Positions 22,839 to 44,812 of a stretch of DNA of 64,000 nucleotides are shown piece by piece. The DNA is from Natrinema amylolyticum (lineage in GTDB: Archaea > Halobacteriota > Halobacteria > Halobacteriales > Natrialbaceae). Made by a program: the position numbers and the translations under genes. Within the stretch, counting starts at the first letter, position 1; every line of letters begins with the position of its first letter. Under the pieces are notes generated by a model. It was given only the letters and a program-made list of their open reading frames with translations. It did no database searches and was not told the DNA's origin. The stretch spans positions 62,001 to 126,000 of the forward strand of contig NZ_JAIWPJ010000004.1 of the NCBI RefSeq assembly GCF_020515625.1, read 5' to 3'.

Positions 22839-22958
22839 ATGATACATCGGTGCGTTTCGAACGGCACGCTCACACCGAAACGTCCCCGGACGCTCGAGCG
22901 AAAAAATCGACCGCTCGGAGAACTGACGGTGCTTTCACTCGCTGGAGTCTCGACATGA
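22839..22958 (+). CDS. putative 39-residue leaderless leader peptide coupled to the kinase
   Basis: ATG 22839 follows a TATA box by 27 bp and opens a 39-codon frame starting MIHRCVSNGTLTPKRPRTLE. It terminates at TGA 22956-22958, overlapping the kinase ATG 22955 as ATGA. GGAG at 22944-22947 is seven nucleotides before the kinase start. The peptide is basic, unlike normal haloarchaeal proteins, so if translated it more likely serves as a regulatory leader than as a protein. An alternative is a longer kinase from GTG 22850, but homologues start near 22955. Confidence 0.42.
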   Translation: MIHRCVSNGTLTPKRPRTLERKNRPLGELTVLSLAGVST

Positions 22959-24073
22959 CACGTTCAACTGACTCCGACTACCTCGACCGGTTGATCGACA
23001 CCGACGCGCTCCGGCGGTACCTGGAGACGACGCTCGGTCCCGCGGACAGGCTCGAGACTGAGTACCACCAGGAGGGGCAATCGAACGAGACGCTCTTTCT
23101 CCAGTGGGGGGATCGCGATCTCGTGCTTCGGCGACCGCCCGCCGGAGCGACGGCCGACTCCGCACACGACGTACTCCGGGAATATCGGGTCATCGAAGCC
23201 CTTCAAGACGCGGACGTACCGGTCCCCCGGACGGTCGCGAGCTGTGACGACCACGGCGTCATCGGTGCCGATTTCTACGTGATGGAGCGGTGTCGCGGCG
23301 ACGTGATCAGGGACGAGGAACCCGACCGGTTCGGCGAACCGCGCTACCGACAACTGGTAGCGGATCGATTTATCGACACGATCGCCGACATCCACGAGAT
23401 CGATCCCGCAGCGGTCGGTCTCGACGATTTGGGGCATCCAGACGGGTACACCGAACGGCAAATCGAACGGTGGACCGACCAACTCGAGTGGGCGTTCGAG
23501 CGGACGGAACGGGAACGATCCGTCCCGTTGCTTCGGGAGATCGCCGATTGGCTCGCCGCGAACGTCCCCGAGGAGTACGATCACACGCTGGTTCACGGCG
23601 ATTACAAGCTCGATAACGTGATGTTCGCGCCGGGCGGGGGACGCGACGCGTCCCCGAACGAGCGAGCGAGCGACGCCCGCGAGCAGTCGCCGGAGATCGA
23701 AGCCGTTTTCGACTGGGAACTGTGTACCCGCGGCGATCCCGCGATGGATCTGGGATGGATGCTGGTTTACTGGCCTGATCCGGGTGATCCGGAGTTCGAG
23801 GGCCAACTGTTTCCCCAGTTTTTGGTCCGAGACGGCTATCCGACTCGACGGGAACTCGTTGATCGCTACGAGGATCAAACCGGTCGAACGTTCGATCATC
23901 ATCGGTTCTATCGAACGTTCGGCGTGTTCAAGATGGCCAGCGCCTGTGAGATGATGTACCGACGGTATCTCGAGGGGAACGCGAACAACGAGACCTATCC
24001 CCTGATGGAACGGCGAGTTCCGCGCCTCGCGGAACGTGCCGACCGGATCCGAACGGGCGATGAACCGTTGTAG
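22955..24073 (+). CDS. ACAD10/11-type phosphotransferase (APH-fold small-molecule kinase)
   Basis: The 372-residue protein has the aminoglycoside-phosphotransferase fold, close to the kinase domain fused to human ACAD10/11. QEGQSNETLFLQWGDRDLVLRRPP is the nucleotide loop and lysine strand. EYRVIEALQDADVPVPRTV and DFYVMERCRGDVI follow. LVHGDYKLDNVMF near residue 210 is the catalytic Brenner loop, and VFDWELCTRGDPAMDLGW holds the metal-binding Asp. A run around residues 230-245 (rich in Asp, Ser, Glu, Arg) is an insertion absent from the paralogue at 37871. Known relatives phosphorylate the hydroxyl of 4-hydroxyacyl-CoA. It follows the ACAD pair and may form one pathway with it. Confidence 0.86.
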   Translation: MTRSTDSDYLDRLIDTDALRRYLETTLGPADRLETEYHQEGQSNETLFLQWGDRDLVLRRPPAGATADSAHDVLREYRVIEALQDADVPVPRTVASCDDHGVIGADFYVMERCRGDVIRDEEPDRFGEPRYRQLVADRFIDTIADIHEIDPAAVGLDDLGHPDGYTERQIERWTDQLEWAFERTERERSVPLLREIADWLAANVPEEYDHTLVHGDYKLDNVMFAPGGGRDASPNERASDAREQSPEIEAVFDWELCTRGDPAMDLGWMLVYWPDPGDPEFEGQLFPQFLVRDGYPTRRELVDRYEDQTGRTFDHHRFYRTFGVFKMASACEMMYRRYLEGNANNETYPLMERRVPRLAERADRIRTGDEPL

Positions 24074-28841: not shown

Positions 28842-29615
28842 CTACCCTCCGATCTGATCACCCGTGACACTAACGATGACCATGAGTATTACGAGCGTTG
28901 TCGCGAGAGCACTGATTTCGGGGCTGAGACCCGTCTGAATCTGATTGAAGATGATAATCGGGACGGTCGTTGTACTGGGTGTGACGAGAAACTGCGTTGC
29001 CGTGAACTCGCCAAACGAGATGACAAACGCAATCAACATCCCAGCGATCATCGCTGGCGCGATGATCGGAATCGTCACGTTGAACGTCGTCTCTAGTCGG
29101 TTCGCTCCCATGATCACCGACGCGTCTTCGAGACGTTCATCGAAGGTCAGTAATCGAGACCGGACGATGAGGAAGACGAACGGCAGCGCGAGTATCGAAT
29201 GCGCGAGAACGATCTGCGGATATCCTCGAGGAATCGGGAGGAGACTCCCGAACCGGAGGAAGGCGACGCCGCTAATTACCGGTGAGATCATCAGCGGTAA
29301 CAGCATGATCGTCGCGAGCGTCTCTTTCATTCTGACTTCGCTCCTCACGAACCCGAACGCGGTAATCGTACCGACGATTCCAGCGACGACTGCGGTAGCA
29401 GACGCGACAATGGTACTCACGACCATCGCATCGATGAGTCGCTGGTTTTCGAAGAGCGAGACGTACCAATCGAGCGTCACGCCGTCGGTTGGCAGCGTCG
29501 GTGCCGATTGGACGGTTAGCGAGGTCGCGATAACTATCACGAGGGGAATCAGCAGTATCGAGTAAACGAGCACTATCGCGGGGTAGAACACTAATCGTGT
29601 GGTGAGTTTCGTCAT
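28842..29615 (-). CDS. ABC transporter permease (PotC-like)
   Basis: The 257-residue inner-membrane protein has about six hydrophobic segments: LVFYPAIVLVYSILLIPLVIVI at the N-terminus and further ones around residues 65, 95, 130, 180 and 230. The EAA loop that docks the ATPase appears as RLEDASVIMGANRLETTFNVTIP near residue 160. The arrangement is that of the second permease of spermidine/putrescine- or phosphonate-type importers. Its start overlaps the stop of the preceding permease as ATGA, so the two subunits are coupled. The sequence looks less GC-rich than the surrounding catabolic genes. Confidence 0.92.
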   Translation of the reverse strand: MTKLTTRLVFYPAIVLVYSILLIPLVIVIATSLTVQSAPTLPTDGVTLDWYVSLFENQRLIDAMVVSTIVASATAVVAGIVGTITAFGFVRSEVRMKETLATIMLLPLMISPVISGVAFLRFGSLLPIPRGYPQIVLAHSILALPFVFLIVRSRLLTFDERLEDASVIMGANRLETTFNVTIPIIAPAMIAGMLIAFVISFGEFTATQFLVTPSTTTVPIIIFNQIQTGLSPEISALATTLVILMVIVSVTGDQIGG

Positions 29616-30463
29616 AGGTCACTGAGCACCTCCGAGATGTTTGCATAGTGATTAAATATCCCGATAAGGATCAGTAATGCACCCGTGAAGACGACCGAAA
29701 GCGCCGCGGCGAGGGGGATGCTGTACGAGAACGACTGTTCGATGACGTTTGCCATCATGAAGTCTCCGGGTCCACCGAGTAACGCTGGAGCGAGGAACGA
29801 CCCGGCAGCGAGAATATAGACGAACAGTGCGCTCGCAATAACGCCGGACAGACTCAGTGGGAAGACCACTGTCCGGAGCGTGTGCAGCGGCGTCGCTCCG
29901 AGTACTTTCGAGGAGTTGATCAGTTCCTCATCAATCGACTGCAAGGAGTTGAAAATCGGGAGAATCGCAAACGGCAGCAGCGCAGCCGTCAGTCCGACTA
30001 TGACTCCGGTCGTCGAAAAGAGGACGCCGAAGTCAGTACCGAACAGTTGCTGGACGGGTCCAGTCGGGAGGAAGAACAACGAGACGCCGAAATATCGAAT
30101 GATGATAGCGATCCACAGGGGTAATAGGATGAATCCGAGCATCAGCATCTGCCGTTTAGCCTTGAAGGCGATGTAATAGGAGATCCAATAGCCGAGGGTC
30201 AGGCAGACGATAGTCGTGACGAGCGCATATGCCAACGTTCGACCGAGCGTCCGCGTGTACGTGCTACTCAGCGCTGTGCTGTAATTTTCGAACAACGAGC
30301 CGCTTCCGAAGTTGAGACTCTCAAACAGCAGCACGAATACGGGTATGATAAAGAAGATCGTCAGCCAACCCAATCCGATTGCCATCAATATCTTCCCAGT
30401 TGACCGGTCACGAAACAGCCCTAACGAAGGGAGTTCTGGCAGTTGAACGTTTCCGAACTTCAT
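29612..30463 (-). CDS. ABC transporter permease (PotB-like)
   Basis: The 283-residue permease has a cytosolic N-terminus, then hydrophobic segments beginning ILMAIGLGWLTIFFIIPVFV. Others are near TLAYALVTTIVCLTLGYWI, MLMLGFILLPLWIAIIIRYF and GVIVGLTAALLPFAILPIF, with two more at the end. The EAA loop is EELINSSKVLGATPLHTLRTVVFP near residue 195. It pairs with the next permease to form the channel of a PotABC-type importer. The ATG at 30463 overlaps the ATPase stop (ATGA). A solute-binding gene is not adjacent; four candidates lie 5-28 kb downstream. Confidence 0.92.
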   Translation of the reverse strand: MKFGNVQLPELPSLGLFRDRSTGKILMAIGLGWLTIFFIIPVFVLLFESLNFGSGSLFENYSTALSSTYTRTLGRTLAYALVTTIVCLTLGYWISYYIAFKAKRQMLMLGFILLPLWIAIIIRYFGVSLFFLPTGPVQQLFGTDFGVLFSTTGVIVGLTAALLPFAILPIFNSLQSIDEELINSSKVLGATPLHTLRTVVFPLSLSGVIASALFVYILAAGSFLAPALLGGPGDFMMANVIEQSFSYSIPLAAALSVVFTGALLILIGIFNHYANISEVLSDL

Positions 30464-31512
30464 ACACAAATCACCTTGTCAGGGTCGAACTGAACCGATA
30501 CCTCTTTTCCGACACTCAGGTCATCCGATGTTTGACTAAATGCTATCACCTTGGTACCATCGTCGAGTTCGATTTCCAACTCGGCGCGGTGACCGAGGTA
30601 TTCGACGTCCGTAATCCTCCCGGAAAACGTGTTTGTGTCGCCATTGGCCTGTGGGGTAGGGTGAACGTCGATCTCCTCAGGCCGGATGTACGTCGATATG
30701 TCGTCACCGGCTACCGCTTCGGTATCGCCATTTGTCTCGATGTGAATCTCCCTCGAACCCGATCGAATGACCGGTGTGTTAGCGTCAACCAATTCTCCCT
30801 CGAACTTCGTCGACTGGCCGAGGAATTCTGCGACGAACTCCGTTTTCGGCTGTTCGTAGAGTTCCGTTGGATGACCCTCCTGTTCCTTTCGTCCTTCGTT
30901 CATCACGATCACCTGGTCCGACATCGACAGCGCTTCTGACTGGTCGTGAGTCACGTGCAACGTCGTCACATCAACTTCCTGTTGGATCGACCGGATTTCG
31001 TTTCGCATATCCTCTCGCAGGACGCGGTCGAGCCCCGTCAGCGGCTCGTCTAGTAGGAGGATGTCCGGTTCGTAGACCAGCGCTCGCGCGAACGAGATTC
31101 GACGCTGCTGCCCACCGCTGAGTTCGTCGGGTTTGTGATCGGCATGCTCCAACATCTGCACCATCTCGAGGTACTTCTCGATCTGCCTGTCGTGGTCGCC
31201 GTCGAAGTCCTGCATCTTCAGACCGTACCTGAGGTTCTCTTCGACGGTCATGTGGGGGAACAGCGCCGAGTGTTGAAACACTAGGCCGATGTTGCGCTCG
31301 TACGGTGGTACGTCCGAGACCTCTTTACCCCGGAGGTGGACCGAACCTGAGGTGGCATCGATGAGGCCCGCAATCACGTGCAACGTCGTACTCTTCCCAC
31401 AGCCACTCGGTCCGAGCAGTGTGGCGAACTGTCCCTCTTCAATACGAAACGATAATTCGTCGACGGCCAGCAAGTCTCCGTAGTACTTTGTAAGGTTTTT
31501 GACTTCTAACAT
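30460..31512 (-). CDS. ABC transporter ATP-binding protein (PotA-like)
   Basis: The 350-residue ATPase powers the importer formed by the two following permeases. All nucleotide motifs are present: Walker A LLGPSGCGKSTT near residue 35, Q-loop VFQHSALFPHMTV, signature LSGGQQRRISFARAL near residue 135, Walker B DILLLDEPLTGLD, and the switch histidine in LHVTHDQSEAL. The C-terminal third is an OB/TOBE-type regulatory domain (YIRPEEIDVHPTP...FSGRITDVEYLGHRAELEIEL), as in PotA, MalK and CysA. A minus-strand TATA-like GATAACC near 31539 is 27 bp from the ATG, so this is the first gene of the operon. Confidence 0.94.
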   Translation of the reverse strand: MLEVKNLTKYYGDLLAVDELSFRIEEGQFATLLGPSGCGKSTTLHVIAGLIDATSGSVHLRGKEVSDVPPYERNIGLVFQHSALFPHMTVEENLRYGLKMQDFDGDHDRQIEKYLEMVQMLEHADHKPDELSGGQQRRISFARALVYEPDILLLDEPLTGLDRVLREDMRNEIRSIQQEVDVTTLHVTHDQSEALSMSDQVIVMNEGRKEQEGHPTELYEQPKTEFVAEFLGQSTKFEGELVDANTPVIRSGSREIHIETNGDTEAVAGDDISTYIRPEEIDVHPTPQANGDTNTFSGRITDVEYLGHRAELEIELDDGTKVIAFSQTSDDLSVGKEVSVQFDPDKVICV

Positions 31513-32809: not shown

Positions 32810-34060
32810 TTACTCGTCGAGAGCGTCCACGCGTCGCTCCTCGTCGAATCGAAGGACGTTCTCGAGTTCTTCCTCTTTGATATCCTCGAACGCCCACCGT
32901 GCGATCGACCGTCGGTGAACCTCGTCGGCACCGTCGACGATGCGGAACGGACGGACGTTCTCGTAGAAGTGCGCCAGCGGCAGGTCCTTGCCGATGCCGT
33001 TCCCACCGCAACACTGGATCGCGAGGTCGATGATCTCGTTCGTAACGTTGGCGGTGAAGTTCTTGGCCATGGCGACTTCGATGCGGGCATCGCTCCGGTC
33101 GAGTTCGCGGGCAGCGTGGCGCGATATCGTCCGCGCGGCGTGTAAGCGCGTCTCGGCGTCAGCGATCCGGTGGCGAAGCGCCTGTTTTTCGGAGAGTGCC
33201 GACCCGAAGCCCTCGCGTTCGCTAATGTAGGCCTTCGCGATGTCGAGTGAGCGCTCCGCCATCCCGGAGTAGCGCATGCAGTGCGTGAGTCGGCCCCCGC
33301 CGAGACGCATCTGTGCGACTTTGAACCCTTCTCCCTCCTCGCCGACCGTGTTCTCGACGGGGACGCGAACGTTCTCGTATTTCACTTCGGCGTGGCCGCC
33401 GGTCCGCTCGGTAATGCCGTGGCCGCCGAGGTGACCGACGTCACGGACGAAGTTGACGCCGTCCGTGTCGGTCGGGACGAGGATGATCGAGGTCCCTTCG
33501 TAAGGGTGGGCATCGAGGTCGGTCCGGGCCATCACCAGGAGGAAATCCGCGTCGGTGCCGTCGGAGGTCCACCACTTGTGGCCGTTGATGACCCACTCGT
33601 CGCCGTCCTTCTCGGCGGTCGTCTGCAGCATTTTCGGATCCGAACCGCCGCCTTGCATCGGTTCGGTCATCGAGAACGCGGACGAGATGTCACCCTGGAC
33701 GAGCGGCCGAAGCCACTCCTCTTTCTGCTCTTCGGTACCGACCATCTCGAGGGTGTGCATGTTCCCCTCGTGGGGTGCGTTCGCCCGGATCGAGAGCGCG
33801 CCGATAAGCGATCGACCGACCTGCTCGAACGACGGCAGCATGTCGCTGAAGTCCAGCCCTTGGCCGCCGTACTCCTCCGGCATCTGTGGTGCGAAGAGAT
33901 CGCGTTCTTTCGCCATCTCCCAGAGCTCTTCGATTTCCGCTTCGGTGATCTTCTCACCGGTTCGAAGCGCCTCCCGCTCGCGGGGAATCACCTCTTCGTC
34001 CATGAACGATTCGACTCGCGTCGCTACCTCCTGTGCCGTTTCGGAGTCGTGATACTCCAT
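32810..34060 (-). CDS. ACAD10/11-like (LvaC-type) acyl-CoA dehydrogenase family protein
   Basis: The 416-residue protein belongs to the ACAD10/11 branch: FSMTEPMQGGGSDPKMLQT near residue 135, then WVINGHKWWTSDGTDADFLLVMARTD. The C-terminus CCGGNGIGKDLPLAHFYENVRPFRIVDGADEVHRRSIAR is diagnostic. At the usual catalytic Glu (EGT/EGS) it has Asp (VDGADEVH), as in ACAD10/11. The family works with APH-type kinases; in LvaC and ACAD11 it handles 4-phosphoacyl-CoA to give an enoyl-CoA. Three such kinases lie elsewhere in this window. A TATA-like element at 34081-34090 is 26 bp upstream of the start. Confidence 0.9.
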   Translation of the reverse strand: MEYHDSETAQEVATRVESFMDEEVIPREREALRTGEKITEAEIEELWEMAKERDLFAPQMPEEYGGQGLDFSDMLPSFEQVGRSLIGALSIRANAPHEGNMHTLEMVGTEEQKEEWLRPLVQGDISSAFSMTEPMQGGGSDPKMLQTTAEKDGDEWVINGHKWWTSDGTDADFLLVMARTDLDAHPYEGTSIILVPTDTDGVNFVRDVGHLGGHGITERTGGHAEVKYENVRVPVENTVGEEGEGFKVAQMRLGGGRLTHCMRYSGMAERSLDIAKAYISEREGFGSALSEKQALRHRIADAETRLHAARTISRHAARELDRSDARIEVAMAKNFTANVTNEIIDLAIQCCGGNGIGKDLPLAHFYENVRPFRIVDGADEVHRRSIARWAFEDIKEEELENVLRFDEERRVDALDE

Positions 34061-35402: not shown

Positions 35403-36500
35403 ATGTCACGGAGTAACGAGGACCATGATTCCGGCAGGGGACGGAAAACAACTCGACGGCGTGTGCTGCAAACCGGTGCTGTGGTTTCCGGTATCACCGT
35501 GGCTGGCTGTATGGGTGACGACAGCGATACGCTCAATTACATCAGTCGCGGCGGAACGACCCAGGACGCCGAGCGAGAGATGTTCGAAAAGTGGAGCGAA
35601 GAGAGTGGAATTGACGTGACACATCAGGAAGTAGCTGATGATACCGAGATGGTCAATCTCATCGCGGAGAATCCCGGCGAATTCGACTTCACGAACCCGG
35701 CGCAGTTCGGGCTCGCGTATGAGCGACTCGAGTACGACGGTGAACTGTTCACCGATCTCGATACGGGCGAGATCCCGAACTACGAGGAAAACGTTCAGGA
35801 TCAGTGGAAAAATGCGCCGCCCATCGAGGGAGAGGACGATGCGATATTCTACTACATGTCCTCTCAAGGAATCGGCTACAACCAAGAGCACATCGACGAG
35901 ATCACGTCGTGGGAGGATCTCAAAGCCGACGAGCTCGAAGACCGCGTCTCGCTGTTCGCATCGCCGCCGACTCGGTTTGCGAACTGTTGTGCTGCACTCG
36001 AGTACGATGTCGGTGAGACGCTCAACGACGACGGCATGATGGACGATGTGTTCGAAGAGATGGAAGAGCAACACCAGAACGTGGTCACCTACTGGAGTGC
36101 CGGCGACGAGTTCATGCGATTGCTCCGAGAGGACCAAGTCTACACATGTTCGGCGTGGGGCGGTCGCATGCAGGTCTTGCAGGAGGGGGGAATGGACGCC
36201 GCATACGTCATTCCCGATGAAGGCGCAGTCGCTCACACGAACTACTTCGTGATAATGGAAGAGAGCGATAAAAAAGAAGACGTCTACGATCTCTTGAACT
36301 ATCTCTACGAACCCGAAAACGCCGTCGAACTGAGTACCACCCACAACTATCCGATGGCCATGCAAGATCCGTCGGACGAGCTTACAGAGCTGTTCGAATA
36401 CGTCGAGAGTCCCGACGAACTGCTCTGGTTCGACTGGGGCGAGATGATTCCGAACTTGAGCGAGATTTCGGAGCGAGTCAACCAAGTGATGGCCAGCTAA
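35403..36500 (+). CDS. Tat-exported lipoprotein, ABC solute-binding protein (PotD-like), paralogue 1
   Basis: The 365-residue extracellular binding protein has a twin-arginine signal, TTRRRVLQTGAVVSG, and a lipobox ending at Cys36 (TVAGC). The mature part starts LNYISRGGTTQDAEREMFEKW and includes GIDVTHQEVADDTEMV, EQHQNVVTYWSAGDEFMRLL and AWGGRMQVLQEGGM. This matches the PotD/extracellular-solute-binding family. It is one of four paralogues in the window and would deliver ligand to the importer at 28.8-31.5 kb, whose operon has none. Divergent from the LLM gene; the ACAD at 36627 follows in the same direction. Confidence 0.92.
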   Translation: MSRSNEDHDSGRGRKTTRRRVLQTGAVVSGITVAGCMGDDSDTLNYISRGGTTQDAEREMFEKWSEESGIDVTHQEVADDTEMVNLIAENPGEFDFTNPAQFGLAYERLEYDGELFTDLDTGEIPNYEENVQDQWKNAPPIEGEDDAIFYYMSSQGIGYNQEHIDEITSWEDLKADELEDRVSLFASPPTRFANCCAALEYDVGETLNDDGMMDDVFEEMEEQHQNVVTYWSAGDEFMRLLREDQVYTCSAWGGRMQVLQEGGMDAAYVIPDEGAVAHTNYFVIMEESDKKEDVYDLLNYLYEPENAVELSTTHNYPMAMQDPSDELTELFEYVESPDELLWFDWGEMIPNLSEISERVNQVMAS

Positions 36501-36626
36501 CCCCATCGTCGTTCCGGAACCACGTGCCGCTTCGATGCGTACGAGTCGCTCACCCGCGCCAGAGTCGAATGATGGACACTGCCATTCGGTAACATGTTTT
36601 AAGTGTGGGATCAATGAATGGTTCGT

Positions 36627-37829
36627 ATGGACTTCAGCGAACCAGCCGACGCTAGCCGCCTCAAATCGGAGCTCGACGAGTTCATCGAAACGGAGATACG
36701 GCCGCTCGAGGACGACCACGAGCGGTTTCTCGGTCCGGATGCGGAACGACACATCTTCGACGACGAGTTCAGGCAAGTTCCCGAGTACCTCGACCTGAAA
36801 GCGACGATCCGCGAGCGCGCCGCCGAGGCCGGATTCTGGGGCATGAACATGCCGGAGTCAGTCGGCGGTCGGGGAATCGGTGCGCTCACCGACGCGCTCG
36901 TCGCCGAGTACCTGGCCGACCAGCCCCCGGGTCTCCACACGTATGCGGTCCGCGGTGCCGGCGGTGGTCCGACGCCGATCTTGCTCAACTGCGACGACGA
37001 GCAGCGAGAGCGGTATCTCGAGCCGCTCATGGCCGGCGAGAAGACGACGTGTTTCGCGCTGACCGAACCCGACGCTGGCAGCGATCCGCAGTTTCTCAGG
37101 ACGACAGCGGAAAGAGACGGTGACGAATGGGTGATCAACGGCGAGAAGTCGTGGATCAGCAACGCGCCCTACGCCGATTTCGCGATGGTGTTCGCGCGGA
37201 CGAGCGGCGAGCCGGGGCAAATCGACGGGATATCGTGTTTCCTCGTCGATACGGACACGCCAGGGCTCTCGGTCGGCGACATCCACCGGCCGATGGGCCA
37301 CGCCTGGGTCGCGCCGGCGGAACTCGAGTTCGAGGACTGTCGCGTCGGTGACGACGCTCTCCTCGGGACCGAAGGGAAGGGGTTCTACCAGGCGATGGAG
37401 TGGATCGGCAACGCGCGGCTGGGCGTCGCGGCCGGCTGCGTCGGGTCGGCCCAGTTCCTTCTCGAGAAGGCTCTCGACTACGCCGAAGAGCGCGAAACGT
37501 TCGGCAAACCGCTCGTCGAGCGACAGGGGATCTCGTTCCCGCTCGCCGAGGTCGCGATGGACGTCGAGCGGACGCGACAGCTCTACCAGTATGCTGCCTG
37601 GAAGGTCGATGAGGGTCATAACGCGCGCAAGGAGACGGCGATGGCGAAACTCGCCGCTGCGAAGTTGGAAAACAAAGCGGCAGACGTCGCGATGCAGATT
37701 CACGGCGCGAAGGGATACTCGCGGCGGGAGCCGATCGAAGACCGGTATCGAACCGCTCGCGGGAAACGACTCACGGAGGGATCGGACGAGATGCAAAAGC
37801 AAACGATCGTTCGCGAACTACGGAACTGA
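36627..37829 (+). CDS. acyl-CoA dehydrogenase
   Basis: The 400-residue FAD enzyme oxidises an acyl-CoA to enoyl-CoA. Motifs are CFALTEPDAGSDPQFLRTT near residue 135, WVINGEKSWISNAPYADFAMVFART, and ETFGKPLVERQGISFPLAEVAMDVE. The C-terminal RLTEGSDEMQKQTIV carries the canonical catalytic Glu. I start at ATG 36627 (MDFSEPADASR), which lies 27 bp after a TTTTAAG element; an in-frame ATG at 36618 would add three residues. It is closest to the ACADs at 39079 and 54009, so three paralogues exist. It follows solute-binding protein 1 and converges with a kinase gene. Confidence 0.92.
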   Translation: MDFSEPADASRLKSELDEFIETEIRPLEDDHERFLGPDAERHIFDDEFRQVPEYLDLKATIRERAAEAGFWGMNMPESVGGRGIGALTDALVAEYLADQPPGLHTYAVRGAGGGPTPILLNCDDEQRERYLEPLMAGEKTTCFALTEPDAGSDPQFLRTTAERDGDEWVINGEKSWISNAPYADFAMVFARTSGEPGQIDGISCFLVDTDTPGLSVGDIHRPMGHAWVAPAELEFEDCRVGDDALLGTEGKGFYQAMEWIGNARLGVAAGCVGSAQFLLEKALDYAEERETFGKPLVERQGISFPLAEVAMDVERTRQLYQYAAWKVDEGHNARKETAMAKLAAAKLENKAADVAMQIHGAKGYSRREPIEDRYRTARGKRLTEGSDEMQKQTIVRELRN

Positions 37830-37870: not shown

Positions 37871-38938
37871 TCAATTAGCCCCATCGATGATGCGCAGCGC
37901 CTGTCGCGCCAGTTCCGGAACGCGCTCTTCCATGATCGGATAGTGGTCGTTGTCGGCGTTCCCCTCGAGGTGGCGACGGAAGAACATCTCGCCGATCCCG
38001 CCCAGCTTGTAGTAGGCCAGTGCCCGGTAGAATCGGTCGTTCTCGAAGGTGTAGCCCGTCGCTTGCTCGTATCGCTCGACGAGTTCCGACCGCGCGTGAT
38101 AGCCGTCCCGGAGCAGGTATTCGGCGTCGCCGGCGGTGCCGACCTTGGTGGTGTCATCGTCTTCGTCAGGCCAGTACGACAGTAGCCAGCCGAGATCGGT
38201 GAACGGATCACCGATCGTCGACATCTCCCAGTCGAGGACGGCGGCGATCTCCGGCGGCGCGTCGGAGCCGAACATCACGTTGTCGAGCTTGTAATCGCCG
38301 TGGACGAGCGTGTGTGGGTGGTCCGATGGCACGTTCGCCTGCAGCCACTCGGTTAGCTCGTGGATTTCGGGGATCTCGCGCGCGTCGGCCGTCACCTCGA
38401 GCGCCCACTCGTACTGCTGCTCCCACCTGTCGACCTGACGCTGCGTGAACCCGTCCGGATGGCCGAACTCCTCGAGGCCGACTGCCTCGTAGTCCACGTT
38501 GTGAATCGCACCGAGCGTGTCGATCATCTCGGTCCCCATCTGCGTTCGATCCGAGGGGGTTCCGAACTGCTCGGGTTCGCTGTCGCGGATGACGATTCCG
38601 TCTAACTGTTCCATCACGTAGAAATCCGAGCCGATAATGTCGTGGTCCTCGGTCGCGACGACCGTCGTCGGAACCGGAACCTCGGTGTCCTGAAGCGCTT
38701 CGAGGACGGTGTACTCTCGGATGACGTCGTGTGCCGTATCGGCTGTTTCGCCCGGCGGGGGGCGGCGGATGACGAGGTCCTGATCGCCCCACGTGACGAA
38801 CAGCGTTTCGTTGGAATGACCGCCCGAGTGGCGGTCGACCTCGAAGACGTCTGTCGAGCCGAGATGGGCGGTCAGAAACGCCTCGAGGGCGTCGAGATCG
38901 ACGAGTCGGTCGAAGTAGTTCGTGCGTTCTTCTGCCAT
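37871..38938 (-). CDS. ACAD10/11-type phosphotransferase (APH-fold kinase)
   Basis: The 355-residue kinase is clearly paralogous to the one at 22955. It has HSGGHSNETLFVTWGDQDLVIRRPP with the nucleotide loop, EYTVLEALQDTEVPVPTTV, GSDFYVMEQLDGIVIRD, the catalytic LVHGDYKLDNVMF near residue 205, and VLDWEMSTIGDPFTDLGW with the metal-binding Asp. It lacks the acidic insertion of its paralogue. It lies between two ACAD genes, convergent with one and divergent from the other. That fits phosphorylation of a hydroxyacyl-CoA before an ACAD-fold enzyme acts, as in ACAD10/11. Physical linkage is suggestive, not proof. Confidence 0.9.
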   Translation of the reverse strand: MAEERTNYFDRLVDLDALEAFLTAHLGSTDVFEVDRHSGGHSNETLFVTWGDQDLVIRRPPPGETADTAHDVIREYTVLEALQDTEVPVPTTVVATEDHDIIGSDFYVMEQLDGIVIRDSEPEQFGTPSDRTQMGTEMIDTLGAIHNVDYEAVGLEEFGHPDGFTQRQVDRWEQQYEWALEVTADAREIPEIHELTEWLQANVPSDHPHTLVHGDYKLDNVMFGSDAPPEIAAVLDWEMSTIGDPFTDLGWLLSYWPDEDDDTTKVGTAGDAEYLLRDGYHARSELVERYEQATGYTFENDRFYRALAYYKLGGIGEMFFRRHLEGNADNDHYPIMEERVPELARQALRIIDGAN

Positions 38939-39078
38939 ACTCCGTACCCTCGGTTTTCACAGCCACCATTAAAACTGCTCCCCTCCGGCTACGGTGGGAA
39001 GCGGGCGAACGCGTTCCCATGGAACGGCGAACGTCTACGGAGGTAATTTTTTGATGACGTGTGAGTAATCGTACTGCT

Positions 39079-40326
39079 ATGGATATCAGTCCATCAACGG
39101 AGCTGCAGTCGTATCTGGATGACCTCGACGAATTCATCGAGAACGAAATCAAGCCGCTCGAGGAGGAACACATCGAATACTTCGACAAACGCCGCGAACA
39201 CGCACGGACCGACTGGGACTCAGGCGGCGAACCCGACGAGGAGTGGCTAGAACTCCTCCAAGAGATGCGAGAGCGCGCCGACGAGGCAGGGTTCTTCCGG
39301 TTCGCGCTCCCCGAGGAGGTCGGCGGCGACGAGGGATCGAACTTCGCGATGGCGGTGATTCGCGAGCACCTGGCGAACAAGGGACTCGGGCTACACAACG
39401 TCCTCCAGAACGAGGCGTCGGTCGTCGGCAACACCGTCTTCCCCCAGATTCTGCTCCGGTTCGGAACCGACGAACAGCAGGAGATGATCGAAGACGTCAT
39501 CACCGGCGAGACGGGCGTCGCCTTCGGGCTCACCGAACCCGACCACGGCAGCGATGCGACGTGGATGGATACGACCGCCGAAAGGGACGGCGACGAGTGG
39601 ATCATCAACGGTGCCAAACGATGGAACAGCGGTATGCACGCCGCAGAGTACGACCTCGTGTTCGCCCGGACCAGCGGCGAGGACGGTGATGCCGACGGCA
39701 TCACGGCGTTCCTGGTACCGACGGACACCGACGGCTTCGAGGTCGACTACTTCTGGTGGACGTTCAACATGCCGACCGACCACGCCGAGGTGTCGATCGA
39801 CGACGTTCGCGTGCCGGATTCGGCAATCCTCGGCGAGGAGGGACAGGGACTGCACATCGCTCAGTTCTTCGTCCACGAGAATCGCATCCGACAGGCCGCG
39901 GCGAGTCTCGGTGCCGCGCAGTTCTGTATCGACGAGGCCGTCGACTACGCGAACGAACGGGAGACGTGGGGCAAGCCCATCTCGAGGCGACAGGCCATCC
40001 AGTTCCCGCTCGCGGAACTACATACGGAAGCGGAGATGCTCCGGAACACGATCCGCAAGACGGCCCGTCTGCTGGACGACGAGGGCGAAATGGTGACCGA
40101 ATCGGAGTCGTCGATCAGCCAACTCGTCGCGATGTGCAATTACAAGGCGAACGACCTCGTCTGTCGGGCGGCAGACCGCGCGATGCAGGTTCACGGTGGC
40201 GTCGGGTACAGCCGGCATAAGCCGTTCGAGCACATCTACCGCCACCACCGCCGGTACCGCATCACGGAAGGCTCCGAAGAAATTCAGAAGCGCCGCGTCG
40301 CGGGCCACCTGTTCGATTTCATCTGA
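39079..40326 (+). CDS. acyl-CoA dehydrogenase
   Basis: The 415-residue ACAD starts at ATG 39079 (MDISPSTELQSYLDDLDEF). An AT-rich TAATTTTTTGA stretch lies 28 bp upstream, and the in-frame GTG at 39061 seems too close to it. Motifs are VAFGLTEPDHGSDATWMDTT, WIINGAKRWNSGMHAAEYDLVFART, ETWGKPISRRQAIQFPLAELHTE, and YRITEGSEEIQKRRVAGHLF with the catalytic Glu. It is a paralogue of the ACADs at 36627 and 54009. It converges with the ligase at 40370, with 43 bp between stops. The same ACAD-ligase tail-to-tail pair recurs at 54009-56813. Confidence 0.92.
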   Translation: MDISPSTELQSYLDDLDEFIENEIKPLEEEHIEYFDKRREHARTDWDSGGEPDEEWLELLQEMRERADEAGFFRFALPEEVGGDEGSNFAMAVIREHLANKGLGLHNVLQNEASVVGNTVFPQILLRFGTDEQQEMIEDVITGETGVAFGLTEPDHGSDATWMDTTAERDGDEWIINGAKRWNSGMHAAEYDLVFARTSGEDGDADGITAFLVPTDTDGFEVDYFWWTFNMPTDHAEVSIDDVRVPDSAILGEEGQGLHIAQFFVHENRIRQAAASLGAAQFCIDEAVDYANERETWGKPISRRQAIQFPLAELHTEAEMLRNTIRKTARLLDDEGEMVTESESSISQLVAMCNYKANDLVCRAADRAMQVHGGVGYSRHKPFEHIYRHHRRYRITEGSEEIQKRRVAGHLFDFI

Positions 40327-40369: not shown

Positions 40370-41899
40370 TCAGGTGAGGTCTGATTTGAGCACCTTTCCG
40401 GTCGGATTTCGCGGCAGTTCCGATCGGAACTCGACCTCTCGAGGCTTCTTGTAGCCGGCGACCCGTTCCTCGACGTGAGACGCGATATCGTCGGCCTCGA
40501 GGTCGGTCGCGTCGTCTTCCGGGACGACGACGGCTTTGACACGTTCGCCCCACCTCTCGTCGGGAACGCCGACGACGGCGACCTCGTTGACGGCCGGGTG
40601 TTCGTGGATCACTTCCTCGACTTCGGCCGGGTGGACGTTCTCGCCGCCCGAGACGATCATGTCGTCGGCGCGGCCGACGAAGTAGACGAACCCCTCTTCG
40701 TCCCGTTTGATGAGGTCGTCGGAAACGAACCAGCCGTCCTCGTCGTACACGTCGTCGGTCTTCTCGGGCATGTTGTGGTAGCCGTCGAACACCGACGGTC
40801 CCTTGTACGCCGCGCGGCCGATCTCGCCGCGGGGGAGCCGGTTCCCGGCATCGTCGACGACTTTCATCTCGAGGTTCAGCGACGGCCGGCCGACGCTGTC
40901 GGCCTTCTCGAGCGTTCGTTCGGGCGGCAACCGGGTCGCCATCGCCTCCGTCTGACCGAAGCTCTCGACGAGGTCGGTGTCGAACGTTTCGATGATTTCG
41001 CGTTTGAGGTCCGCACTCGAGGGCGCGGCGCCCGTGCCGTAGCTCTCGAACGCTGAGAGGTCGTAGTCCGCGACGTCGTCTACCGACAGGAGCATCCGGC
41101 TCTGGGTCGGGACGAAGTACGAGGAATTGATCGACTCCTCCTCGAGGAGGGTCAACACGCGCTCCGGATCGAACCCGTCGGTGACGATCGTCGTTCCGCC
41201 GACGTAGAGGTTCGTGATGAAGGGAACGAACGCGCCGACGTGAAACAACGGCGTGACGATCAGGTGACGGTTACCCGGCTCGAGGTAGTCGCCCTCGTAG
41301 ACGCCGTCCGCCGCGAGCGTCAGCAAGTTGTCGTGGGTGAATCGACACCCCTTCGGTCGCCCGGTAGTCCCGCTCGTGTACATCAGCGCCGCCTGATCCT
41401 GACGGTCGGGAACGACGTCGACGGCGTCGGCCGACGCGTTCTCGAGGAACGCCTCGTAGGAGCTAGCGAACGCCGGGGGATCCTCGTCCACGGAGAGGAA
41501 CGTCTCGACGGGAACGATGGGGTCGTCGTGGATGTCGCCGATCGTGTCCGCACCGAAAGCGTCGAGTATCGCGACCTCGGGTCCGCTGTCGTCGAGAACG
41601 TAGCTCACCTCTTGGCCTTTGAACCGATGGTTCACCGGCACCGGACGCGCGCCGATCAGCATCGCGCCGACGAAACACTCGAGCGTTTCGACGTTGTTCT
41701 TCATATACAACGCGACGGTGTCACCGGCACGGACACCCAGGTCGGCGAGCCCGTTCGCGACCCGAGTAACCCGTGACTCGAATTCGGTGTACGTGTACGC
41801 TCCGACTCGGCGTCCGTCAGAACGGTGAACGGCGGCTTCTTGGTCCGGATATTTCCGTGCGTTTCGCTGTACCAGATGACCGACGGTCAGCCCACTCAT
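40370..41899 (-). CDS. AMP-forming acyl-CoA synthetase (LvaE-like position)
   Basis: The 509-residue ligase begins MSGLTVGHLVQRNARKYPDQ. The loop LMYTSGTTGRPKGCRFTHDN lies near residue 175, VESFGQTEAMATRLPPE near 320, and GWFVSDDLIKRDEEGFVYFVGRADDMIVSGGENVHPAEVEE in the hinge. RNPTGKVLKSDL carries the C-terminal Lys. It is a clear paralogue of the ligase at 55236. It lies directly downstream of the kinase/small-protein pair at 42034-43562 on the same strand, so the three genes may form one operon that activates an acid and phosphorylates the CoA thioester. Confidence 0.93.
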   Translation of the reverse strand: MSGLTVGHLVQRNARKYPDQEAAVHRSDGRRVGAYTYTEFESRVTRVANGLADLGVRAGDTVALYMKNNVETLECFVGAMLIGARPVPVNHRFKGQEVSYVLDDSGPEVAILDAFGADTIGDIHDDPIVPVETFLSVDEDPPAFASSYEAFLENASADAVDVVPDRQDQAALMYTSGTTGRPKGCRFTHDNLLTLAADGVYEGDYLEPGNRHLIVTPLFHVGAFVPFITNLYVGGTTIVTDGFDPERVLTLLEEESINSSYFVPTQSRMLLSVDDVADYDLSAFESYGTGAAPSSADLKREIIETFDTDLVESFGQTEAMATRLPPERTLEKADSVGRPSLNLEMKVVDDAGNRLPRGEIGRAAYKGPSVFDGYHNMPEKTDDVYDEDGWFVSDDLIKRDEEGFVYFVGRADDMIVSGGENVHPAEVEEVIHEHPAVNEVAVVGVPDERWGERVKAVVVPEDDATDLEADDIASHVEERVAGYKKPREVEFRSELPRNPTGKVLKSDLT

Positions 41900-42033: not shown

Positions 42034-43110
42034 TCAGGTACGATCGGCTTCGATCAGATCGAGCATGTCCTCGATCAATCCGGGAACGATGTACTGGAAC
42101 CAGGCGCTTCGGACATCGTCGCTCTCGCCGGTGTGGAATCGGTACGCGCCGCCGATACCGCTGTTCATCATCCGGAACGCACCGAAGACCCGCCAGTACC
42201 GCAGACGATCCGGGTCGATCGTCCGTCCAGTTCGCTTCTCGTACTCGTCGTAGAACCACTCGCGGTCGACGACCGCACCGGCCAAGTTCGGTCGTTCGGT
42301 GGGCTCGACGAGTTTCCCGGCGAAGTACCGCAGCGAGGAGTACGCCACGTCGAACATCGGATCGCCGATCGCCGACATCTCCCAGTCGAGCACGGCCGAG
42401 ACCGACTCGTCGTGGAGTAGCATGTTTCCGATCCGGAGGTCGCCGTGGACGAGCGTCGTTTCGGGCACCTCCGGCTTGTTCGCCTCGAGCCAGTCGATGA
42501 TCTCGTTGACGGCCGGCTCGTCGACGAGTTTCGTCGCCTCGTAACTGCGTCGCTGCAATTCGAGCGTATCGTCGACGAACGCCTGGGGATCTTTCGTCTC
42601 GAGACAGGGGACGTCGTCGCCGTCGAGTTCGTGGATGTTCGCGATGACGTCGACGAGTTGGTTCGGAAGAGGCTTTCCGTCGCGGTCCCAGGAGTCGTAC
42701 AGCGAGTTTCGATCGCGCGGATCCCAGGTCACTGGTGCCGTTCCCGGCCGGTGGCTGACCAGGAAGAACGGCCCGCCGAGCACCGACTGGTCCGCTTCGA
42801 ACCAGTAGGGTTCCGGAACGGGAACGTCGACGTCCGCTTCGTACACCGACCGCATGGTCTCGAACTCGGTCTGGATCTCGTTGCGGTAATCGAACTGTCG
42901 CTCCTCGCCGTGGCCTGGGTCGACGCGTGCGACGAGCCGTTCGGACCGCTCGGTACCGCCATCAGTCCAGGTGGTCGTAAACGACATCGTCTGCCTGGAC
43001 CACCCTTCCGTGTGGCGCTCGAGGTCAGTTACCGTAACGTCGCTATCCGCCAATCGGCCGGAGAGGTATGGCTCGAGTTCGCCCGTGATATCGTCCACCT
43101 CGAGTGTCAT
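42034..43110 (-). CDS. phosphotransferase (APH-fold kinase, LvaA-like)
   Basis: The 358-residue kinase is more distant from those at 22955 and 37871. HTEGWSRQTMSFTTTW replaces the nucleotide loop, VPVPEPYWFEADQSVLGGPFFLVSHRPG follows, and the catalytic loop is LVHGDLRIGNMLLHDES near residue 225, then VLDWEMSAIGDPMFDVAY with the Mg-binding Asp. Its start overlaps the stop of the small protein gene upstream (43107-43110). In Pseudomonas putida the kinase LvaA needs the small protein LvaB to phosphorylate 4-hydroxyvaleryl-CoA. The gene order here (small protein, kinase, ligase) resembles that. The substrate remains inferred. Confidence 0.88.
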   Translation of the reverse strand: MTLEVDDITGELEPYLSGRLADSDVTVTDLERHTEGWSRQTMSFTTTWTDGGTERSERLVARVDPGHGEERQFDYRNEIQTEFETMRSVYEADVDVPVPEPYWFEADQSVLGGPFFLVSHRPGTAPVTWDPRDRNSLYDSWDRDGKPLPNQLVDVIANIHELDGDDVPCLETKDPQAFVDDTLELQRRSYEATKLVDEPAVNEIIDWLEANKPEVPETTLVHGDLRIGNMLLHDESVSAVLDWEMSAIGDPMFDVAYSSLRYFAGKLVEPTERPNLAGAVVDREWFYDEYEKRTGRTIDPDRLRYWRVFGAFRMMNSGIGGAYRFHTGESDDVRSAWFQYIVPGLIEDMLDLIEADRT

Positions 43111-43562
43111 GCCGAATCACGTCCGAGCATTTCGAGTTGTCCCTCGACGCGTACTCGAAGGAAGTCGTAGAGCGGATCCCGTGCCGCCCTGGCGGCCGCG
43201 CCGTCGAGTTCCGCATTGATCTCGTCGAGAACGTCGTTACACGCCGAGACGAGTACGGGCTCCAGTTCGTCCCCGTCGGACCCCGAGGCGTCTTCGACGC
43301 GTTCTCGCGCGTCTGCGGCCGCTTCTGTGACGGCCGTCGACTCGCAGTCGCGCTCGACGGCTTCGAGCGCCTCGAGCAACGAGTCTCGCTGTCGTCGCGT
43401 GAGCTCACGTTGCTGACGCAACTGGTCGGCGAGATACCGCATCGTACTCGACATCGATCCCACCTGCCCGTCGACGAACTCGTCGTCGATCTCCGCCCTA
43501 ACGTCGTCCTGCAGGAACGACGCGAACTGCTCGATCACCTGCGCAGGTTGTAGGTGTGGCAT
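43107..43562 (-). CDS. small helical protein, candidate LvaB-like partner of the kinase
   Basis: The 151-residue acidic, almost all-helical protein begins MPHLQPAQVIEQFASFLQDDV. The helix EIDDEFVDGQVGSMSSTMRYL follows, then RQQRELTRRQRDSLLEALEAVE with coiled-coil character, an acidic spacer, and a final helix, PLYDFLRVRVEGQLEMLGRD. It has no signal peptide or metal motif. It resembles in size, N-terminal 'FL-x-DV' pattern and position the DUF6285/LvaB-type partners that sit next to APH-type kinases; this is a judgement by eye. ATG 43562 has GGGAGAG upstream, so it is leadered. Its stop is fused to the kinase start as ATGA. Confidence 0.65.
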   Translation of the reverse strand: MPHLQPAQVIEQFASFLQDDVRAEIDDEFVDGQVGSMSSTMRYLADQLRQQRELTRRQRDSLLEALEAVERDCESTAVTEAAADARERVEDASGSDGDELEPVLVSACNDVLDEINAELDGAAARAARDPLYDFLRVRVEGQLEMLGRDSA

Positions 43563-43744
43563 TCTCTCCCAATAATCGATTGGCACGCAAAAAGATGTTT
43601 CGCTCGGCCTACCGTTCGAACGCGATCTCATATTTTATTACTACTATTTATAAGTTATATTAATTAATAAGATTATTGGTGTTCGATAGCGGATAGTGAT
43701 TTGAATAAGTGCATTAAAATAGATGAATGGTGAGGACTGGAAAC
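43563..43744. promoter_or_regulatory. AT-rich divergent promoter region
   Basis: This 182-bp gap is the most AT-rich spot in this part of the window, a run of A and T around 43630-43678 with overlapping TTAAT palindromes. A minus-strand AATAAAATA near 43635 would serve the small protein/kinase/ligase operon, leaving a leader of about 45 nt. A plus-strand ATTAAAA at 43712-43718 would serve solute-binding protein 2, 29 bp before ATG 43745. The AT palindromes could bind a regulator. Confidence 0.5.
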
Positions 43745-44812
43745 ATGGTAGAGGATACCAATAATCAGCCAACGCGTCGCCGAGTCCTACAGACGGGCAG
43801 CGTCGTCGCAGGAATCGGCATCGCTGGGTGTATGGGAGGCAGCGATGATAGTCTCAGCTACATCAGCCGTGGTGGAGTCACACAGGAAGCGGAGCGGAAG
43901 ATTATGGAAGAGTGGTCCGAGGAGAGCGGGATCGACGTGACACATCAGGAAGTGGCGGATGACACCGAGATGGTCGAACTCATCGCGGCCAATCCCAACG
44001 AGTTCGACTTTACGAACCCGGTCTCGTGGGCGTTCGAGCTCAATCGACTCGAACACGACGAGGAACTCTTCGCGGAGATCGACCTCGAGCAGGTGCCGAA
44101 CTACGATAACGTCGACGACGCCTGGCACTCCGCGCCGCTCGTCGAAGACAATCCCTACGGCATCTTTTACTACATTTCGACCCAGGGGTTGATCTACAAC
44201 ACTGAACGAGCCGATGTGTCGTCGTGGGAAGACATCAAGGATGACGAGTACGGCGACGAGGTGACGCTGCAAAACAGCGCCGTTTCGCGGTTCGGGAATT
44301 CGTGCGCGAGTCTCGGGTACGATATCACGGAAGTCGCGAACGACGACGAGCTTTTCGAAGACGCCATCGATGAAATGGAAGAGCAACACCAGAACGTGTT
44401 CACCTACTGGACCGCCGGCGACGAGTTCATGCGCTTGCTCCGGGAGGAGCAAGCCAGCGTCTCCGAAGGGTGGGGCGGACGAGCGGAAAATCTTCAGGAA
44501 GACGGCCACCCGGTCGAGTACGTCATTCCGGAGGAGGGCTGTATCACGTGGTCGACCGCGTTCGCCGTCGTGGAAGCGAGCGACAAAAAAGAGGACGTCT
44601 ACGACCTCCTCAACTTCATCTACGAACGGGAGAACGCCGTCGAGCTGACGCTCGATCACAAGTATCCGATTCCGCTCGAGGACCCGCCCGAGGAAATCAC
44701 CGAACGCGCCGAGTACACCGAACAGCCGGACGAACTCGTCTGGATCGACTGGTCCGATATCGTTCCGTTACAGCAGGAGCTAGAACAGCGACACAACGAG
44801 ATTCTGAGCTGA
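43745..44812 (+). CDS. Tat-exported lipoprotein, ABC solute-binding protein (PotD-like), paralogue 2
   Basis: The 355-residue binding protein has the twin-arginine signal PTRRRVLQTGSVVAGIGIAG and lipobox Cys29. The mature N-terminus SYISRGGVTQEAERKIMEEW closely matches paralogues 1 and 4. GIDVTHQEVADDTEMVELI, EEQHQNVFTYWTAGDEFMRLL and GWGGRAENLQEDGH follow. The TATA box at 43712-43718 supports ATG 43745 over an in-frame ATG at 43727. It is divergent from the kinase/ligase operon, so capture and activation of one ligand may be regulated from the same intergenic region. It should dock to the PotABC-like importer. Confidence 0.92.
   Translation: MVEDTNNQPTRRRVLQTGSVVAGIGIAGCMGGSDDSLSYISRGGVTQEAERKIMEEWSEESGIDVTHQEVADDTEMVELIAANPNEFDFTNPVSWAFELNRLEHDEELFAEIDLEQVPNYDNVDDAWHSAPLVEDNPYGIFYYISTQGLIYNTERADVSSWEDIKDDEYGDEVTLQNSAVSRFGNSCASLGYDITEVANDDELFEDAIDEMEEQHQNVFTYWTAGDEFMRLLREEQASVSEGWGGRAENLQEDGHPVEYVIPEEGCITWSTAFAVVEASDKKEDVYDLLNFIYERENAVELTLDHKYPIPLEDPPEEITERAEYTEQPDELVWIDWSDIVPLQQELEQRHNEILS

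Follow-up and report, generated by a model that had tools for sequence, protein, structure and literature searches.

A small acidic protein encoded directly upstream of the APH-family kinase KIN2 in Natrinema amylolyticum is, with a probability that we put at about 0.7 and by analogy with bacterial levulinate catabolism, a dedicated and probably activating LvaB-like subunit of that kinase, which would itself be a hydroxyacyl-CoA kinase. Both genes lie in a stretch of 64,000 nucleotides (the window) on a 313-kb contig of this 4.7-Mb haloarchaeal genome (Table 1). In the bacterial system, excerpts of PMC6692424, citing Rand 2017, describe LvaB as a 12-kDa hypothetical protein that was pulled down with LvaA, and the same excerpts report that strains with deletions of lvaA, lvaB or lvaC did not grow on levulinate. 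Among the 382 Halobacteria genomes searched, we found the small gene and KIN2 together in every one that has either, and found positionally equivalent small proteins beside related kinases in bacteria.

Table 1. Features of the window that bear on the small-protein gene
Feature	Coordinates	Strand	Details
Small acidic five-helix protein	43107..43562	-	151 aa; proposed LvaB-like partner of KIN2
KIN2, APH-family kinase	42034..43110	-	358 aa; Pfam APH 1.7e-32; ATGA overlap with the small gene
AMP1, acyl-CoA ligase	40370..41899	-	Pfam AMP-binding; same strand, 134 bases downstream of KIN2
ACAD2, acyl-CoA dehydrogenase	39061..40326	+	Glu base (ITEG); HENRIRQ instead of HCMR
KIN1, ACAD11-like kinase	37871..38938	-	2.6e-50 to 8v3v; without small partner gene
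ACAD1, conventional acyl-CoA dehydrogenase	36618..37829	+	Glu base
LvaC/ACAD10/11-type acyl-CoA dehydrogenase	32810..34060	-	RLGGGRLTHCMR and IVDGADEVH; HCMR motif; Asp base
KIN3, second ACAD11-type kinase paralog	22850..24073	+	without small partner
Solute-binding protein	43727-44812		upstream of the small gene, divergent

Translation of the minus-strand frame from 43562 to 43107 gives 151 residues and a stop, with 35 acidic and 15 basic residues. An earlier note on this DNA had described an acidic, helical protein with no recognised catalytic motif, and this description holds: scans against Pfam and NCBIfam returned only sub-threshold noise with no catalytic family recognised, and an AlphaFold2 model (mean pLDDT 87.7) has helices at residues 6-24, 28-72, 76-92, 97-118 and 121-145. 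The overlap with the kinase start that it reported is also present, as the TGA of the small gene and the ATG of KIN2 (43110 to 42034) have bases 43107-43110 (ATGA) in common. The description of the protein as translationally fused to the kinase gene was mistaken; these are separate overlapping genes on the minus strand, the small gene upstream and KIN2 second, an arrangement consistent with translational coupling. An alternative in-frame ATG at 43631 would yield a product of 174 aa; we place the start at 43562 because homologs start MP(H/Y)L.P. The sequence GGGAGAGA, read directly, precedes this ATG and is a plausible ribosome-binding sequence.

The small gene is a real gene. Across its 151 codons, differences at codon positions 1/2/3 number 15/9/55 relative to the homolog in Salinadaptatus halalkaliphilus (L031, 85% identical), and 25/11/45 and 32/18/59 relative to those at loci L033 and L034; 32 positions are invariant across the family. 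That the frame might be spurious is suggested by an antisense open frame of 149 aa at 43104-43553 (+), which we regard as a shadow because the third-position-biased divergence and the invariant positions belong to the minus frame. With homologs in 11 genomes, and with the 15/9/55 pattern counting as a refutation, a spurious open reading frame can be practically dismissed.

Structure comparison adds little. Foldseek with the small-protein model gave no match at E ≤ 0.001, and the best VIA-align score, Z 8.6, is within the range that the tool deems common for helical bundles. Sequence searches of the PDB (queries A1 and A2) found no convincing relative, and no relative was found in the viral contigs searched.

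KIN2 is an intact kinase, with a catalytic loop (HGDLRIGN) and a DWE motif. Its relatives in the PDB are 9o56, 3dxp, 3ats, 9fsg and the ACAD11 structures 8v3v/8v3u, and it scores far below the cut-offs of the NCBIfam drug-kinase models. As an APH protein with an intact loop that lies nearer to acyl-CoA kinases than to drug kinases, KIN2 appears by sequence to belong with the kinases of LvaA and ACAD10/11. The window itself offers a natural contrast, as KIN1 and KIN3, which fall among ACAD11-type kinases, are partner-less; similarity to ACAD11 8v3v is 1.7e-14 for KIN2 versus 2.6e-50 for KIN1.

An initial search covered 391 Halobacteria genomes, of which 152 had a match at E ≤ 0.1 and 11 had full-length homologs (E ≤ 2.1e-26); the other matches were nearly all weak and partial (E above 1e-4), many of them inside much longer open frames. 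A profile search of 382 Halobacteria genomes gave 13 at E ≤ 0.001, of which 11 were kept; matches in G087 and G091 and a second match in G303 were set aside as weak and partial, with E-values of 1e-4 to 5e-4 in open frames 518-639 aa long. Orthologs of KIN2 (E ≤ 1e-60) occur in 11 of the 382 genomes, and the two sets are identical. We examined neighbourhoods at 12 places and on two named contigs (L032 and L033 coincide, and the copy at L039 is broken), giving 13 intact loci, that is, 12 others and the window. At all 13, KIN2 is immediately preceded by the small gene in the same orientation; conservation of the pair across haloarchaea, a check set beforehand, was thus borne out. The two genes overlap by four bases (ATGA or GTGA) at nine of these loci; the overlap is probably longer at L036 and L043, the kinase start is uncertain at L040 and a gap of 3 bases separates the genes at L037.

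The neighbours of the pair are more variable. Within the stretches examined, a relative of ACAD2 (66-96%) is present at 12 of the 13 intact loci and a relative of AMP1 (53% or more) at 11, the window counted in both; at L037, the small gene and KIN2 occur together with neither nearby. A second copy in G192 (L039 8361-11141, G192:C2) has ACAD2, the small protein and the kinase all broken across frames, and is a decaying duplicate that has decayed as a pair. The small gene and KIN2 are therefore a conserved two-gene unit, and in every genome with the small protein it is encoded beside an LvaA-like APH kinase, the arrangement that marks an LvaB-like partner. Homologs in six plasmid records are annotated as ‘hypothetical protein’ in four, and the other two records lack annotation. 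Elsewhere in the window, the solute-binding proteins at 35403-36500 and 43727-44812 are similar to each other and have RRR-type N-termini, the latter resembling PotD below the NCBIfam cut-off; the genes at 28842-31512 are, judged by sequence, apparent ABC transporter genes.

The dehydrogenase that accompanies the pair differs from that of the Lva operon. In ACAD11, according to excerpts of PMC12440821, R626, H634 and R637 of the HCMR motif hold the phosphorylated substrate beside the catalytic Asp D753. A clustered dehydrogenase with the HCMR motif and a catalytic Asp, as in Lva operons, is found in the window at 32810-34060, 9 kb from the small-gene module, and not in ACAD2, which is not of the LvaC type because it has HENRIRQ and Glu in place of HCMR and Asp; the downstream chemistry with ACAD2 may differ accordingly from that of the LvaC/ACAD10/11 type. 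The genome has three genes for LvaC-type dehydrogenases (HCMR and Asp), and each of the ten other small-protein genomes has at least one, usually away from KIN2. Among bacterial proteins, the DUF6285-linked dehydrogenases of Stutzerimonas, Azoarcus and Paroceanicella and that of Sulfitobacter alexandrii have HCMR and Asp, and the relatives of ACAD2 in Sulfitobacter pontiacus, Nocardia farcinica and Rhodobacteraceae QY30 share with it HENRIRQ or NENRIRQ and Glu. ACAD2, whose HENRIRQ helix is conserved, has 57-61% identity to bacterial proteins and about 42% or less to the haloarchaeal dehydrogenases seen that are not its orthologs.

We used ACAD2 as a slowly diverging probe for bacterial relatives; the best were in N. 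farcinica (61.1%), QY30 (60.9%) and S. pontiacus (57%). Two of these three loci have a kinase and a DUF6285 gene beside the dehydrogenase, in the order ligase, kinase, DUF6285, ACAD in S. pontiacus and DUF6285, kinase, ACAD in N. farcinica, where, like the haloarchaeal small gene, DUF6285 immediately precedes the kinase gene. At 80.6 and 50.2 bits, the two DUF6285 proteins exceed the PF19802 cut-off; the QY30 copy of ACAD2 has neither a kinase nor a small protein alongside. Two bacterial phyla thus have this kind of dehydrogenase beside a kinase and DUF6285; in haloarchaea its companions are KIN2 and the unnamed protein.

The LvaB of Pseudomonas putida we take to be a DUF6285 (PF19802) protein, a reading taken from the earlier note and from the operon order of a Stutzerimonas plasmid, and not from LvaB’s own sequence. 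On that plasmid the order is kinase, DUF6285, phosphatase, ACAD (HCMR), SDR and synthetase, which resembles the lva order and has DUF6285 where lvaB would be. Beyond the S. pontiacus and N. farcinica loci, six DUF6285 genes on plasmids overlap the kinase gene or follow it directly. In S. alexandrii, Rhodococcus opacus and QY30, kinase genes are followed by genes for proteins without a Pfam family, and in Variovorax by genes for unnamed ones: the SRS16 plasmid (L076 286-4471) carries two pairs of kinase and small hypothetical protein in one gene run. The 173-aa R. opacus protein (L047 6017-6538) overlaps its kinase gene and has a weak DUF6285 signal (E 0.0057), and hhalign gave it none to the haloarchaeal family.

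That haloarchaeal small proteins are LvaB/DUF6285 counterparts, as the earlier note proposed, stands as regards conserved adjacency and the positional match in bacteria; profile similarity is marginal. None of the 13 family members matches PF19802 at its curated cut-off, and none of the 382 Halobacteria genomes has a match at E ≤ 0.001; the family is formally outside DUF6285 as now drawn. The HMM–HMM comparison that had been suggested as a check gave a noise-level result with six DUF6285 rows (hhalign probability 0.35%, E 0.17), and with nine rows a score of 20.9 (E 0.012, probability 3.7%) that exceeded all 300 decoys (150 column-shuffled and 150 reversed). A bridging pair from S. alexandrii and QY30 scored 28.0 (E 8.6e-4, probability 23.6%), again above 300 of 300 decoys; in absolute terms both probabilities are low. 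A pair of Rhodococcus partners gave no signal: it was equalled by 14 of 150 column shuffles. All these alignments fall on the N-terminal 60-70 residues and agree in register.

Rank tests were made in both directions. With an HMM of three bacterial kinase-adjacent proteins, the 13 family members take ranks 1-9, 11, 12, 13 and 26 among 679 ORFs, of which 522 were scored; the window protein is first and the broken copy 26th. With a DUF6285 HMM and the same ORFs, the members rank 1, 2, 6, 7, 10, 12, 13, 15, 17, 19, 34, 65 and 179 (the window protein is 10th). In a separate ranking with the DUF6285 HMM, the unnamed bacterial proteins come straight after DUF6285’s own members (ranks 10-14 and 18). 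In reverse, a haloarchaeal HMM places 15 bacterial partners at 1, 2, 6, 10, 15, 16, 20, 21, 22, 24, 32, 34, 65, 67 and 88 of 459 ORFs (316 scored), with a best E-value of only 1.2; the AUC is 0.95 for the 15 partners and 0.92 for the nine DUF6285 proteins alone. Because the members are not independent, the accompanying Mann-Whitney p-values overstate the significance.

Divergence of this order may be expected. Haloarchaea whose ACAD2 proteins share about 70% identity average 56% in KIN2 and 47% in the small protein. The bacterial comparison, S. pontiacus against N. farcinica, gives 64% for the dehydrogenases, 36% for the kinases and 28% for DUF6285. A small protein at the limit of detection would fit what common descent predicts, without proving descent. 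Our preferred reading is a fast-evolving, LvaB-like subunit of a hydroxyacyl-CoA kinase, a remote counterpart of LvaB; the LvaC/ACAD10/11 signature is missing from the ACAD2 of its module.

The history of the module was probably not simple. In a maximum-likelihood tree of 32 kinases, the haloarchaeal KIN2 proteins (100/100) and the DUF6285-linked kinases (100/99) form separate clades, and the kinases with unnamed partners in S. alexandrii and Variovorax form a third; partner-less ACAD11-like kinases adjoin KIN2 weakly (86/87), where several long branches meet. On the basis of this tree we rejected a simple account in which one gene set was inherited with ACAD2 from bacteria. Because the kinase clades are separate, the pair was not simply inherited together with ACAD2, and the two may have been combined more than once. 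We also considered whether the small protein replaces an Arg lost from the CoA site of the kinase, and rejected this, as the position of ACAD11 R176 varies with and without a partner. The catalytic loop H.D.R.GN occurs in all 25 partner-linked kinases, and three of four partner-less kinases have HGDYKLDN or HGDYRIDN; a partner-specific loop is only a weak hint, because a Rhodococcus rhodochrous kinase breaks the rule and few partner-less rows were compared.

We propose that the small protein and KIN2 would be produced together from their overlapping genes, and that the small protein would have the role for KIN2 that LvaB of the DUF6285 type has for LvaA, a 4-hydroxyacyl-CoA kinase. A CoA thioester would be made by AMP1 or a comparable ligase, and the KIN2 complex would phosphorylate its hydroxyl group; a dehydrogenase (ACAD2 or the LvaC-type enzyme at 32810-34060) would then remove the phosphate group or desaturate the product, towards β-oxidation. 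Conserved residues in the N-terminal hairpin (F/R/Q/G/S/M, within 13-44) and in the last helix (R/P/Y/L/Q/G, within 128-148) probably form the surface that faces the kinase. We infer the physical complex, the activation, the substrate and this interface.

The small protein might instead be a regulator, inhibitor, chaperone or scaffold of the kinase (tying KIN2 to ACAD2, for example) that is unrelated to LvaB by descent and convergent in position. The missing PF19802 matches in family and genomes, the separate kinase clades and a fold that matches only helical-bundle lookalikes would all suit such a protein, and there is a precedent for restraint, as the kinase of ACAD10 is held back by its linked HAD domain (excerpts of PMC11342911). 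We nevertheless consider it unlikely, given the N-terminal pattern that is in register with two bacterial partner sets, above all decoys, and the two-way rank tests. Far less probable still is an unrelated small protein that shares an operon with the kinase without touching it. The variable neighbourhood at L037 leaves it some room, but neither gene was found alone across 382 genomes, the genes overlap or touch at every locus (with the 3-base gap at L037), and L037 keeps the pair even though ACAD2 and AMP1 are absent.

If the small protein is an LvaB-like subunit of KIN2, the two-part kinase arrangement of bacterial levulinate catabolism extends to archaea, and a protein currently annotated as ‘hypothetical’ gains a function. 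The pair would also mark kinases that possibly need a partner on expression, which is relevant to assays, and the pairing with a non-LvaC ACAD2, conserved across domains, points to a variant phosphorylated-acyl-CoA route. More tentatively, and as a possibility that we would not yet favour, LvaB/DUF6285 could belong, as a single branch, to a large superfamily of helical subunits that activate hydroxyacyl-CoA kinases in Archaea and Bacteria, diverge fast and mostly lack names, with the haloarchaeal branch working in a different pathway in which the Glu-type HENRIRQ ACAD2 replaces LvaC.

A literature search that covered few subscription papers showed no archaeal LvaB among the papers listed and no paper on DUF6285 by name; those on haloarchaea and levulinic acid concern, by title, mostly polyhydroxyalkanoates. 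In mammalian ACAD10/ACAD11, which KIN1, KIN3 and the dehydrogenase at 32810-34060 resemble, kinase and dehydrogenase for 4-hydroxyacyl-CoA are in a single chain without a small partner, and KIN2 is more distant from them than KIN1 is. LvaB of the P. putida lva operon shares with the haloarchaeal protein its setting, a small non-catalytic protein beside an APH-family acyl-CoA kinase with CoA ligase and dehydrogenase genes, and DUF6285-type LvaB has a similar N-terminal helix pattern. The two differ in size (12 kDa versus 150-170 aa), in the PF19802 match that the haloarchaeal proteins lack and in gene order, as the haloarchaeal small gene is upstream of the kinase and DUF6285 is downstream in most loci examined. 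The unnamed proteins of S. alexandrii, QY30 and Variovorax SRS16 are bacterial and encoded downstream of the kinase, with D.(F/Y)ARGQ where the haloarchaeal proteins have (D/E).F(V/L)..Q; like the haloarchaeal protein they have no Pfam family, are about 155 aa long and are encoded by genes that overlap or touch the kinase gene.
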